Source of the DNA: Polyangium aurulentum
GTDB lineage: Bacteria; Myxococcota_A; Polyangia; Polyangiales; Polyangiaceae
NCBI GenBank assembly: GCA_945875545.1
Contig: CAMCKZ010000016.1
Span: 1 to 44,232 of the forward strand
Direction: 5' to 3'
DNA length: 44,232 nt
In this document: in pieces, positions 7,999-12,972 of the stretch
How the letters are laid out: every line of letters begins with the position of its first letter
How positions within the stretch are numbered: position 1 is the first letter of the stretch
The notes under the pieces: generated by a model
The model's database searches: none
What the model was told of the DNA's origin: nothing
The model's input: only the letters and a program-made list of their open reading frames with translations
Made by a program: the position numbers and the translations under genes

Positions 7999-8823
7999 TC
8001 AGCCTTCGGTGCGGGGCTTGTGGAGCTTGTGAGACTTGTGAGGCTTGCGCAGCTTCGATGCACCGGCCTTGAATGCAAGATGCACGAGTTCCGGAGCGTG
8101 GCGCGCGACGGAGGCCGCGAGCTTTCCGTGGAGCGTCACAATGACCTCGCGCCGACGAGCCTCCACCGCATCGATGATTTGCCGGGCCGCCACTTCGCGC
8201 TTCATCACGAGAAACGTCGGGACCGGATCGGAGCCCGGTGAGTGGCTGCCATCACGCCTTTTCTCCCGGATTTCGCTCTCGACAAATCCCGGGGCCACAT
8301 GCGTTACCGCCACGCCCCTCGGGGACATTTCACCGTAGAGAGCCTCAGCCAGAGCACGTACGGCGTATTTACTCATCGCATACGCGGAGTTATCGGGCAT
8401 CGACACGTAACCCATGACGGAACCGACAATGGCGATCGAGCCCTTCGTGATGGAGACCGCCGGTATCGCCGCTTGAACCGTTCGCACGACGCCAAAAACG
8501 TTGGTCTCGAACTGCCGACGAAAATCGTCGATCGACAGGTCTTCCACCTGACCGCCCACTGAAAATCCCGCGTTCGCCACGACCACATCGAGCTGCCCGA
8601 ACATCTCTTGCGCCGCCGCGACGGCCTTCTCGATCGAGCCGTCGACGCACACGTCGGCCTCGACCCCCAGGCACTGATTTCGCCCAAGGCGATCCTCGAG
8701 GGAACGCAGGCGATCCACGCGGCGCCCCACAGCGACGACGCACGCCCCGCGGCTCGCCCATTCGAGCGCCATCGCCTCGCCAATACCCGACGTAGCCCCG
8801 GTAATCATCACGACTCGCTTCAT
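7999..8823 (-). CDS. Short-chain dehydrogenase/reductase with basic His/Lys tail
   Basis: NAD(P)-dependent oxidoreductase of the classical SDR family, 274 aa. Visible motifs are the Rossmann TGATSGIG near residues 8-15, NAG in VVVANAGFS, the catalytic Ser in IAIVGSVMG and YAMSK (YxxxK). The arginines after strand 2 (VGRRVDR) suggest NADP(H) preference. Substrate is unknown. The last 20 residues are a low-complexity tail of KxH triplets (KPHKSHKLHKP) made by a 9-bp repeat, unusual for SDRs. The start at 8823 is supported by AGGGG upstream. The frame is open further, to 9291, but that part runs through the divergent intergenic region and into purL and is not SDR-like. It is transcribed away from purL. 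Confidence 0.9.
   Translation of the reverse strand: MKRVVMITGATSGIGEAMALEWASRGACVVAVGRRVDRLRSLEDRLGRNQCLGVEADVCVDGSIEKAVAAAQEMFGQLDVVVANAGFSVGGQVEDLSIDDFRRQFETNVFGVVRTVQAAIPAVSITKGSIAIVGSVMGYVSMPDNSAYAMSKYAVRALAEALYGEMSPRGVAVTHVAPGFVESEIREKRRDGSHSPGSDPVPTFLVMKREVAARQIIDAVEARRREVIVTLHGKLAASVARHAPELVHLAFKAGASKLRKPHKSHKLHKPRTEG
8016..8057 (-). repeat. 9-bp tandem repeat encoding the SDR KxH tail
   Basis: About four and a half imperfect copies of GCTTGTGAG (plus-strand reading) with period 9. On the coding strand they give successive Lys-x-His triplets at the C-terminus of the SDR. Confidence 0.75.
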
Positions 8824-8843
8824 GGGCAATCCCCTAGGTGGAT

Positions 8844-8950
8844 GCTGGGAAACGCGGAACCGCCCCAAATCGTCGCTTGGGCTCGTCGAAATACAGAAAG
8901 TATTCCTGCCTCGCCCTGCACTAGCTTTGGGAGCGTCCGCGTTTCCCAGC
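8844..8950. repeat. Nested inverted repeat between SDR and purL
   Basis: Perfect 15-bp arms GCTGGGAAACGCGGA (8844-8858) and its reverse complement (8936-8950) are 77 bp apart. Inside are a second pairing, CCCAAA at 8864-8869 with TTTGGG at 8926-8931, and a central AATAC/GTATT hairpin (8890-8894 and 8900-8904) whose centre, 8897, coincides with the centre of the outer arms. It sits in the 255-bp divergent region, 129 bp before the purL start and 21 bp before the SDR start. It could be a structured leader, a paired operator or a small non-autonomous element. The sequence alone does not choose between these. Confidence 0.8.
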
Positions 8951-9078
8951 GCATTCCTAGCAGTCCGCGCGCCGGGTCGATAGGGGTCGATACGGTGCCC
9001 TGCGGCGAGGCCGCCCCTGGGCCGTGAATCGTCGGTTGTCCATTGCCCGACCCCGAGCTTCACCGCTACATCGCGGCC

Positions 9079-12000
9079 ATGCTCGTTCTGCCCGGTGCCC
9101 CCGCTCTTTCCGACGCCCGCCTCGCGAAGCTTCACGCGATTGCGCTCGTGGGCAATCCCGGGGTGACGGGGATAACTGCACACTACATGCACTTTGTGGA
9201 GTGCGGTGAAACGGCGACCGCCGTCGAACGAGACCGCCTCGAAGCCATTTTGGGAATCGATGCACAATGCATGCGTCGTTCCGGCGATCACGGCTTCATC
9301 GTGTCGCCCCGGGTCGGCACGATCAGCCCGTGGTCGTCGAAGGCCTCGGACATCCTGGGGAGGTGCGGCCTTGGGTCTCTTGGCCGCATTGAACGCTGCG
9401 TCGGGTATGGATTTTCAGGTGAAATCATCAATGAATCCATGCTCTTCGCGAACATCCACGACCGCATGACCGAGTCGGTTCTTCGTAGCGACAACGACGC
9501 GCGGGCCCTCTTTTCCAGCGACCTCCCGCGCAAGCTCTCACGTGTTGACCTCCTCGGGAGAGGGGCTTCGGCGATCGAAGACGCGAACGACACACTGGGG
9601 CTCGCGCTGTCTCCTGACGAGGTCGCGTACCTGGCCCACTCGTTCACGCAGGCGCAGCGCAATCCCACGAACGTTGAGCTCATGATGTTCGCCCAGGCCA
9701 ACAGCGAACACTGCCGCCACAAGATTTTCAACGCGAACTTTGTCGTCGACGGCGTCGCGCAAATTCGCTCGCTTTTCGATCTTATCAAGCTCAGTACGGC
9801 GGCGAGTCCAGCCGGTGTATTGTCGGCGTATACCGATAACGCGGCCGTCATTGCAGGCTCTCTCGGCGGGCGATTCTTCCCGCGCGAAGACGGCGTTTAC
9901 CGCACGACCGAAGAGCCGATCCATATTCTCGCCAAGGTCGAAACGCACAACCACCCGACTGCCATCAGTCCCTTTCCCGGGGCGGCCACGGGCGCGGGCG
10001 GCGAAATTCGCGACGAGGGTGCAACGGGTCGAGGCGCGAAACCCAAGGCGGGCATCTGTGGCTTCGCCGTTTCTCACCTGCGCCTGCCCGGTGCGCCGCG
10101 GCCTTGGGAGTCCATAAACCCAGGGAAACCTCAGAGAATCGTCGACCCGCTGCGCATCATGATTGACGGACCCCTTGGGGCTGCCGCGTTCAACAACGAG
10201 TTTGGGCGACCGAACATCGGCGGCTTTTTTCGTGATTTCGAACTCCAAGTTCCGACCCATGCCGGCCCCGCGTGGCGCGGTTTTCACAAGCCCATCATGG
10301 TCGCGGGCGGACTCGGCAGCGTGCGCCCAATGCACGTGAAAAAGGGCATCATCGAGCCGGGCCATCTCGTGATCGTTCTCGGCGGGCCCGCGATGCTCAT
10401 CGGTCTCGGGGGCGGAGCAGCCTCGTCCGTGGCAAGCGGTGCATCGAGCGAAGACCTGGATTTTGCCTCGGTTCAGCGCGACAACGCGGAGATGGAGAGG
10501 CGCTGCCAAGAGGTCATCGATCGGTGTTGGCAGATGGGCGATGGCAACATACTTCGGTCGATCCACGACGTGGGCGCGGGTGGCCTCTCCAATGCCCTTC
10601 CGGAGCTCGTACACGAGTCCAAACGCGGCGCCGTTTTTCAGTTGCGCGCCGTGCCCACCGCCGAACCTGGACTCGCGCCCCACGAGCTCTGGTGCAACGA
10701 GGCGCAGGAGCGTTACGTCCTCGCGATCAACGAGAGCGATCTCAGTATTTTCGAGGCTATTTGCAGGCGGGAGCGCTGCCCATTTGCGGTCGTCGGCCGC
10801 GCCACCGAGCCTGCGGATTTGCTCGTCGAGGACGCGCTGCACAACGATTCGCCCGTCTCGATGCCCATGCATGTTCTCCTCGGCAAGCCTCCGAAGATGA
10901 CGCGGAATGCGGACCGCGTGGACCGGCCCGGAGACGATTTCACGGGAGCCGAATTGCCCCTCGGCGAGGCCCTTACCCGCGTGCTGCAACAGCCTACCGT
11001 TGCCGACAAAAGCTTCTTGCTCACCATCGGCGACCGATCGGTGACCGGGCTTGTGACGCGCGATCCCTTCGTTGGTCCCTGGCAAATCGCCTGCGCCGAC
11101 GTTGCTGTAACACAGGCAAGCTACAACGTATATGTTGGCGAAGCGATGGCCATGGGCGAGCGGTCACCGGTCGCCATTTTGAACCCCGCAGCCTCGGCGC
11201 GCTTGGCCGTGGCGGAGGCCCTAACGAACGTATGTGCCGCGTATGTTGGGGAGATTGGTCGTGTAAAACTGAGCGCGAACTGGATGGCAGCCTGCGGCGA
11301 ACCCGGTGAAGACGCCGCTCTCTTTGACGCGGTGCAGGCGGTGGGCGCTGAGCTCGCGCCCGCCCTCGGCATTGCGATTCCCGTGGGAAAAGACAGTCTA
11401 TCCATGCGCACGGTGTGGAGCGATGGCGGAGAAAAGAAGAGCGTCGTTTCGCCGTTGGCCCTCGTCGTCACAGCGTTTGCGGCCGTCAAGGACGTGCGAA
11501 AGACGCTCACGCCCCTCATGGATTTCTCGGAAAATGGGCGTGCGGATCTTGTGCTGATCGACCTTGGCCGCGGGCGCTGCCGCCTCGGAGGCAGCATCGT
11601 GGCGCAGGTGTACGAGAGCATCGGCCGCGAGACCCCGGACCTCGACGACCCCAAATTGCTGCGGGCTTTTTGGGAGCTCATACAGACGTCGCATGACGAT
11701 AACTACCTCGCGTCTTACCACGACAGATCCGACGGCGGGCTTGCGATTACCCTGCTCGAAATGGCATTTGCCTCCGGCGCAAGCTTGTCGATTTCTCTTC
11801 CGTCCGGGCAAGCGTCCGGGCAAGCGTCCGACCTCGCGGTTCTCTTTTCCGAGGAACTGGGGGCCGTCGTGCAAGTGCGGGGCGCGCACCGCGAGGCCTT
11901 CTTTGCTCGCGCGAAGTCCCTCGGCCTTGAGCCTTGGACGCACGCGATTGGCACCGCCGCGCTCGGGCGCTCGATTCGGATCACGCGCGAGGGCCGAGCC

Positions 12001-12972
12001 CTCATCGATGGCGACCGGTTCGCGCTGCGGGCCCAGTGGAGCGAGGTGACCCATCATGTGGCGCGACTTCGCGACGACGCCACGTGCGCCGACGAAGAGC
12101 ACGCGCTTCGCGTTGATCCTGCGAATTCTGGGCTCACAGCGCTTGTCGCCTTCGACGCGGCCCGCGATATTTCCGCGCCCTACCTGAACCTCGGAGCCCG
12201 CCCGCGCGTAGCGATCTTTCGCGAGCAGGGGGTCAACGGCCACGTCGAAATGGCCGCCGCTTTCGACCGCGTGGGCTTCGAATGCGTAGACGTGCACGCG
12301 ACCGACCTCCTCGAAAAACGCGTGCAGCTTGCAAGCTTTCGAGGGCTCGTGGCATGCGGCGGATTTTCTTACGGAGACGTGCTCGGCGCGGGCCAGGGCT
12401 GGGCCAAGTCGATTCTTTTCGACCCCAGCGCGCGTGAACAATTTGAAGCATTTTTCCAGCGTTCAGACGCGTTCACCTTGGGCGTGTGCAACGGATGCCA
12501 GATGCTCGCGAACCTGCGCGAGCTCATCCCCGGCGGCGGCCTGTGGCCCCGTTTTCGTCGAAACCGCAGCGAGCAATTTGAGGCCCGTGTCGCGATGGTT
12601 CGCATCGAGGAGAGCCCATCGATTTTCTTCCGCGGCATGCACGGCTCGCATCTTCCAGTGGCCGTCGCCCACGGCGAAGGTCGCGCGGTTTTTGACAACG
12701 CCGCCGCCCAAATGGCAGTCCGCGAGGCGGGACTTTGCGCCGCGCGTTTTGTCGATGGCCGCGGCGATAGAACCGAGGTTTACCCGCTAAATCCCAACGG
12801 ATCCGTCGGCGGCCTCACCGCCATCACGACCCCCGACGGGCGCGCAACCATCCTGATGCCGCATCCGGAGCGGGTCATTCGCACGGCCCAACTTTCATGG
12901 CATCCGCGCGACTGGCACGACGACTCACCGTGGCTGCGCTTCTTTGGCAACGCGCGAGCCTGGGTCGATTAG
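9079..12972 (+). CDS. purL: Phosphoribosylformylglycinamidine synthase, single-chain
   Basis: Fourth step of purine synthesis: FGAR plus glutamine and ATP give FGAM. This is the long one-chain form (1297 aa) known from Gammaproteobacteria and eukaryotes rather than the PurS/PurQ/PurL complex. The N-terminal PurS-like domain ([12 protein letters not shown]) is followed by two AIR-synthase-like halves with [19 protein letters not shown] (about 289) and [16 protein letters not shown]. The C-terminal glutamine amidotransferase has the nucleophile in GVCNGCQML (about 1136) and the His-Glu pair in PHPER (about 1260). The ATG at 9079 aligns with the family start; an in-frame TTG at 9043 is an alternative. 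A 12-bp duplication gives SGQASGQAS near residue 910. Purine regulation could involve the inverted repeat upstream. Confidence 0.97.

Follow-up and report, generated by a model that had tools for sequence, protein, structure and literature searches.

Most bacterial MITEs are short-lived and derive by deletion from a local insertion sequence (IS), ordinary MITEs arising from their IS by internal deletion. Among the described systems, the ERIC (IRU, RU-1) sequences of enterobacteria are extragenic imperfect palindromes of 127 bp that are dispersed and non-autonomous (PMC2229807), the Correia/NEMIS elements of Neisseria and the RUP elements of pneumococcus are MITEs of about 107–155 bp with terminal repeats (Correia with an optional internal insertion), and the MITEs of DDE-type IS (e.g., MITEAba12, PMC6382973) have their ends in common with a full-length IS in the genome. 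The GTAG/CGTC REPs, finally, are abundant extragenic DNA palindromes of only 20–40 bp that are tagged at one end (PMC3733652).

The feature studied here is located in the window (i.e., the whole stretch of 44,232 bp of Polyangium aurulentum DNA that was analysed), and is very probably one copy of a non-autonomous, MITE-like transposable hairpin that is mobilised in trans into YTAR sites. Its architecture is that of a MITE, close in kind to the ERIC, Correia and RUP elements, and in size it equals ERIC. Nevertheless, ERIC has TA at its ends and an unrelated sequence, whereas the Polyangiaceae hairpin has YTAR/CTAG, a covarying core found in multiple genera and terminal repeats that vary by lineage. 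Correia/NEMIS and RUP likewise differ in target and sequence, and the accessible portions of the literature on them describe no constant multi-genus core with exchanged ends. With the MITEs of DDE-type IS, the Polyangiaceae hairpin has in common that its ends match those of a full-length IS, here with YTAR-type duplications, but unlike in ordinary MITEs the hairpin core is made of non-IS sequence and has a far wider distribution than the only IS identified. A hairpin family with a multi-genus core and changing terminal repeats was not found described in the literature searched, most subscription literature lying outside that search.

An earlier note on this DNA had described three concentric pairings within 107 bp, and all three were present: perfect 15-bp arms at 8844–8858 and 8936–8950 (gap of 77 bp, centre at 8897), CCCAAA/TTTGGG at 8864–8869 and 8926–8931 (centre at 8897.5), and AATAC/GTATT at 8890–8894 and 8900–8904 (centre at 8897). 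A fourth pairing, GGGC/GCCC at 8879–8882 and 8913–8916, was located between the other levels. The 107 bases were predicted to fold at –54.8 kcal/mol on the plus strand (z of –6.3) and at –62.0 kcal/mol on the minus strand (z of –7.2), and 0 of 200 shuffles reached this stability on either strand. Moreover, among 2000 first-order random versions of the spacer between the SDR gene and purL, 0.1% contained a perfect 12-bp inverted repeat and none contained one of 15 bp. Together, these results indicate that the inverted repeat is not due to chance, in agreement with the earlier note.

While the arms had been placed correctly, the 107-bp limits proved too narrow. Alignment of the copies in the host's own genome revealed a unit of 127 bp (8834–8960) with CTAG at both ends, its limits being set by the other full-length copies, which start and stop at CTAG there and show identity confined between both CTAGs. 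The left (8834–8837) and right (8957–8960) CTAG are presumed to be the two copies of a 4-bp YTAR target duplication, based on the CTAG ends of most copies and the single CTAG in tandems. They enclose a left terminal repeat GTGGATGCTGGGAAACGCGGA (8838–8858, plus strand, assigned via arm matches in the host genome) and a right terminal repeat (8936–8956, minus strand, assigned via arm matches and arm comparison), within which the perfect 15-bp arms pair. Further inward, a conserved folded core (8860–8932; 100 bits in the window with covariance model R1) comprises helix 1 (CCCAAA with TTTGGG), helix 2 (GGGC with GCCC), helix 3 (AATAC with GTATT) and a conserved internal CTAG (8921–8924), all on the plus strand.

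The suggestion of a small MITE-like element, to be checked by searching for copies with the same arms, was borne out by dozens of such copies with target duplications, and by one filled/empty pair (see below). In the host assembly (3.52 Mb in 188 contigs, i.e., fragmented and possibly lacking repeats), BLAST yielded 36 matches to the region, 13 of which were near full length at 80–95% identity, and the arm pattern YTAGNNGNNNGCTGGGAAACG yielded 71 matches with at most two mismatches vs. four for the reversed pattern. The sequence around these copies was unrelated from copy to copy. Copies fell into length classes of about 127, 139–142 and 175–190 bp, the longest with an extra inner hairpin, and at three places they were arranged head-to-tail with one common CTAG, as expected if insertion into CTAG duplicates it. 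The family thus consists of short (127–190 bp), non-coding and dispersed copies with terminal inverted repeats and a target-site duplication, as in a MITE. Two congeners contained one arm match each (with 1 mismatch), suggesting that the window's subfamily expanded in the host lineage. Five host loci (L041, L045, L046, L049 and L052) contained solo terminal repeats, in which the ca. 21 bp next to CTAG enclose unrelated sequence and which to judge from their sequence are probably deletion remnants or strongly degraded copies.

Among 117 distinct elements with automatically set ends, YTAR was present on both sides in 35 and on one side in 22, and identical tetranucleotides were present in 30; these counts are descriptive, the end-finder favouring YTAR and delivering a few false entries. 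The target duplications of these elements were often imperfect. Comparison of orthologous filled and empty sites yielded only one clean empty site, in which Polyangium sp. 15x6 has CTAG where Polyangium sp. y55x31 carries an element, and the TAG of this empty CTAG terminates the reading frame of the gene upstream. One orthologous site carried different subfamilies in two Polyangium species (L173:about 1380–1500 and L240:4355–4475), indicating either replacement of copies or repeated use of a site.

In the complete Polyangium genome G103, the 16-base subfamily end TAGCAGCCTGTGGANT retrieved hairpins, six near-identical copies of a 1,530-bp IS, two end fragments and nothing else. This IS encodes a 483-residue protein (L112:365–1816) with DUF772 and DDE_Tnp_1 domains, as do IS of the IS1182/IS5 superfamily, and IS1182 was its top NCBIfam family, albeit at 176.7 bits and thus below the family cut-off of 270. 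Five of the six copies were flanked by CTAG/CTAG or TTAG/TTAG, and one by CTAA/TTAA. About 20 bp of the left end are common to the IS and the Polyangium hairpin subfamily, so that the wider family does have an autonomous partner, demonstrated for the one Polyangium subfamily CAGCCTGTGGA; the hairpins themselves, unlike such IS, encode nothing. A DDE transposase of the IS1182/IS5 kind would then act in trans on the terminal repeats and cut and paste the hairpin into YTAR sites, and we infer trans-mobilisation by IS1182-type transposases for all lineages.

In the host assembly of 188 contigs, which may lack repeats, no IS was found to end in the terminal repeats of the window's subfamily (CTAG-GTGGACGCTGGGAAACG), nor did this fragmented assembly contain a DUF772 protein or a homologue of the Polyangium transposase. 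Unpaired host arms, inspected for a hidden IS, belonged to solo ends or to degraded copies, or else bordered unrelated sequence. The DDE_Tnp_1 fragments on host contigs C52 and C146 were dismissed, being ISNCY/IS1182-like but truncated, at contig ends and without matching terminal repeats, and an IS701-family helper was rejected as well, there being no DDE_5 transposase in the host genome (search of genomes G000–G003). A tblastn search of 20 genomes with the Polyangium transposase returned only the congener and one weak match, so that this transposase cannot be the helper everywhere.

In Minicystis, a DUF772 IS of 1.68 kb (at least 12 copies) had CTAG on both sides in 11 of the 11 copies examined. 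It was considered as the partner of the Minicystis hairpins, since it also targets CTAG, and rejected because its ends differ. In Minicystis rosea, one IS1182-like IS is situated inside the internal CTAG of a hairpin (L274:354–2038), equivalent to the CTAG at 8921–8924 in the window, and another copy adjoins a hairpin-like sequence at its CTAG edge (L154). What at L274 had looked like an element of 1,800 bp with hairpin ends is thus really the Minicystis IS inserted into a hairpin.

Movement of REP/BIME-like palindromes by a RAYT (Y1/HUH) transposase would agree with the high copy number, extragenic position, hairpin structure and conserved CGTC in the core, and abundant extragenic DNA palindromes are indeed what the elements and the GTAG/CGTC REPs have in common. 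Nevertheless, the host genome contains no Y1_Tnp (HUH) transposase gene, and hence no RAYT, which largely refutes a RAYT/REP system, and elements of 120–190 bp with two-sided terminal repeats contrast with CGTC-REPs described as short and end-tagged, so that we regard this explanation as extremely improbable.

Myxobacteria carry retrons with long DNA hairpins, and an origin of the hairpins in retron msDNA or another retroelement, with integration of DNA copies, would fit with the DNA-like pairing of the core described below. A retroelement origin has been proposed for repeats of Nannocystis exedens (Lampson and Rice 1997, as cited in PMC6868368). The YTAR duplications and the ends in common with a DDE IS point to cut-and-paste transposition instead, leaving a retroelement source highly improbable for the Polyangiaceae hairpins.

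With a covariance model built from window positions 8860–8932 and 45 candidates scored per genome, the core was detected in 31 of 108 family genomes and 19 of 48 genera (Polyangium, Minicystis, Sorangium and MAGs), often in tens of copies each and with up to at least 38 model matches in a genome. The outer terminal repeats varied by lineage, and weak matches from further genera combined this inner sequence with different outer stems. Unpaired stretches of the core were also conserved (i.e., TCGTCGGTCG on the left and CCTAGC on the right). Scanning about 85,000 species-representative genomes for the 18-base core pattern TGCTGCGCG-N8-CGTCGGTCG yielded many matches that, among those listed, came mostly from Polyangium, Minicystis rosea, Sorangium cellulosum and Polyangiaceae MAGs. 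The covariance model confirmed at least 57; among the matches listed, all confirmed ones belong to Myxococcota records, some of which bear the title delta-proteobacterium, whereas it did not confirm the listed matches in Arthrobacter, Mycobacterium, Chlorobi and others. The core model matched the window a second time, marginally, at 9019–9065 (just 5′ of purL; 18.6 bits, E of 0.007), probably by chance.

Compensatory changes in relatives, proposed earlier as a check, were readily observed. In 49 distinct cores, 94.5% of the cells were paired (vs. ca. 40% in slid controls), and 138 two-sided changes were counted vs. 32 in shuffles (0 of 500 shuffles reaching the observed number). Such changes affected 6 of 6 pairs in helix 1, 4 of 4 in helix 2 and 3 of 5 in helix 3, in which 98% of the cells were paired. 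A second set of 40 cores, partly overlapping the first, gave the same covariation result. The folded core is thus maintained by compensatory change in about twenty genera, while the terminal repeats changed.

A structured RNA should tolerate G-U only on its own strand, and an A-C opposition is a G-U event read on the opposite strand. G-U and A-C were found 9 vs. 9 times in the first set and 6 vs. 9 times in the second (small counts from related sequences), so that the excess of G-U over A-C expected on the transcribed strand of a structured RNA was not seen. Since G-U was no commoner than A-C, the pairing is strand-symmetric and looks like that of DNA, not RNA. The core is apparently constrained as DNA rather than as RNA, although small counts from related sequences make this an argument and no proof. 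Selection on structure, as the earlier note had put forward, thus holds for the core, but the pairing statistics favour DNA over the RNA version of that claim. Moreover, the copies across the host genome adjoin unrelated genes, and no known Rfam family matches the element. A structured RNA, whether attenuator, small RNA or riboswitch-like leader, with an effect on SDR/purL or on the neighbours of other copies would draw support from the very stable fold on both strands and the strong covariation, but would be at odds with these neighbours, the lack of an Rfam match and the strand symmetry, and would need neither terminal repeats nor target duplications; we consider it very unlikely.

The window copy is located between two divergent genes, i.e., an SDR-family oxidoreductase gene (7999–8823, minus strand) and purL, encoding a full-length FGAM synthase (9043–12972, plus strand; 1884 bits, with the likely ATG at 9079). 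Its edge lies 10 bp before the start codon of the SDR gene, the place where the copy would have inserted, and the AG of its CTAG completes an AGGGGA (8836–8831) before the SDR gene. From its sequence and position, this AGGGGA is plausibly a Shine-Dalgarno sequence that is partly supplied by the element. No promoter- or terminator-like match and no T-run was found in the window copy. A role as a shared regulatory leader of purL found no support, given the unrelated genes beside copies genome-wide and the lack of an Rfam match. The site beside purL looks incidental; the element is very probably not a purine-gene switch, no tie to purines having been found, and a supposed regulator upstream of purL would thereby be removed.

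Stop codons were strongly associated with the hairpin edges. Among elements with enough flank (n = 82; coding-like frames, with YTAR controls from the same loci), a stop codon was situated at the hairpin edge in 43 of 82, vs. 43 of 239 other YTAR sites and 17 of 2957 random sites, and at both edges in 10 of 82. This association exceeds by far what the target motif predicts. Convergent genes were the commonest context of the copies, and divergent genes were rare. Both the stop codons (43 of 82 at an edge, 10 at both) and the convergent context would be in line with terminator or insulator hairpins of mobile origin, retained and multiplied for ending transcription after stops, notably between convergent genes, and a terminator benefit is a possible contributor to the association. 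Against this, the window copy contains no T-run or terminator-like match, many copies (the window's included) are located away from 3′ ends, and the enrichment is also expected from loss of harmful insertions, so that retention as terminators is unlikely. Survival of harmless insertions explains much of the association: as TAR serves as a stop codon, and two convergent genes can have their overlapping stops within one CTAG, a non-autonomous hairpin inserting at YTAR/CTAG would restore the stops and harm no gene, and such copies would accumulate.

The proposed transposable hairpin has three parts, namely the 4-bp YTAR/CTAG target duplication, terminal inverted repeats that are specific to a lineage, and a core (ca. 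73 bp, imperfectly palindromic) common to the Polyangiaceae. The core would be kept as folded or palindromic DNA, and might, more tentatively, serve the transposase or a host protein as a site of recognition or assembly; a DNA-level role is what we infer for it. A pure MITE would have no need of a core conserved across genera, which counts against our preferred explanation. It is conceivable, though rather doubtful, that the core is a folded DNA module which parasitises insertion sequences independently and has persisted in the Polyangiaceae, repeatedly re-dressed in the terminal repeats of the resident YTAR-targeting DDE transposase, with stop codons as safe landing sites. If this picture holds, the family would offer a testable case of long-term coexistence of a non-autonomous element, its helpers and host gene ends in bacteria with very large genomes, and could be used directly as a repeat family in the annotation of Sorangium, Polyangium and Minicystis genomes.

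Some host loci showed further arrangements. Longer variants (L028:351–577, L031:363–546 and L023:456–623) contain an additional inner palindrome GGGACCCATCCCC..TGTGCGAAGCA..GGATGGGG whose position behind ATCGTC is constant, and this module is also found inside a second host repeat family. The latter has GACCCTCGCCGAAAA ends and mosaic inner hairpins GGGGACCC..GGATGGGG (L054:1925–2350, L055:1828–2150 and L056:1640–1740, on contigs C56, C50 and C151), and at L054 it splits a copy of the window's family beside its internal CTAG. Its ends are those of hairpins in the Polyangiaceae MAG ZH-3nov15-113 (L187, L230). Finally, one copy (L008:1320–1446, contig C66) is unlike all others in having a 15-bp direct repeat CCCAGCACGGCTCTA on its flanks, and this repeat overlaps with the right end of the copy itself.
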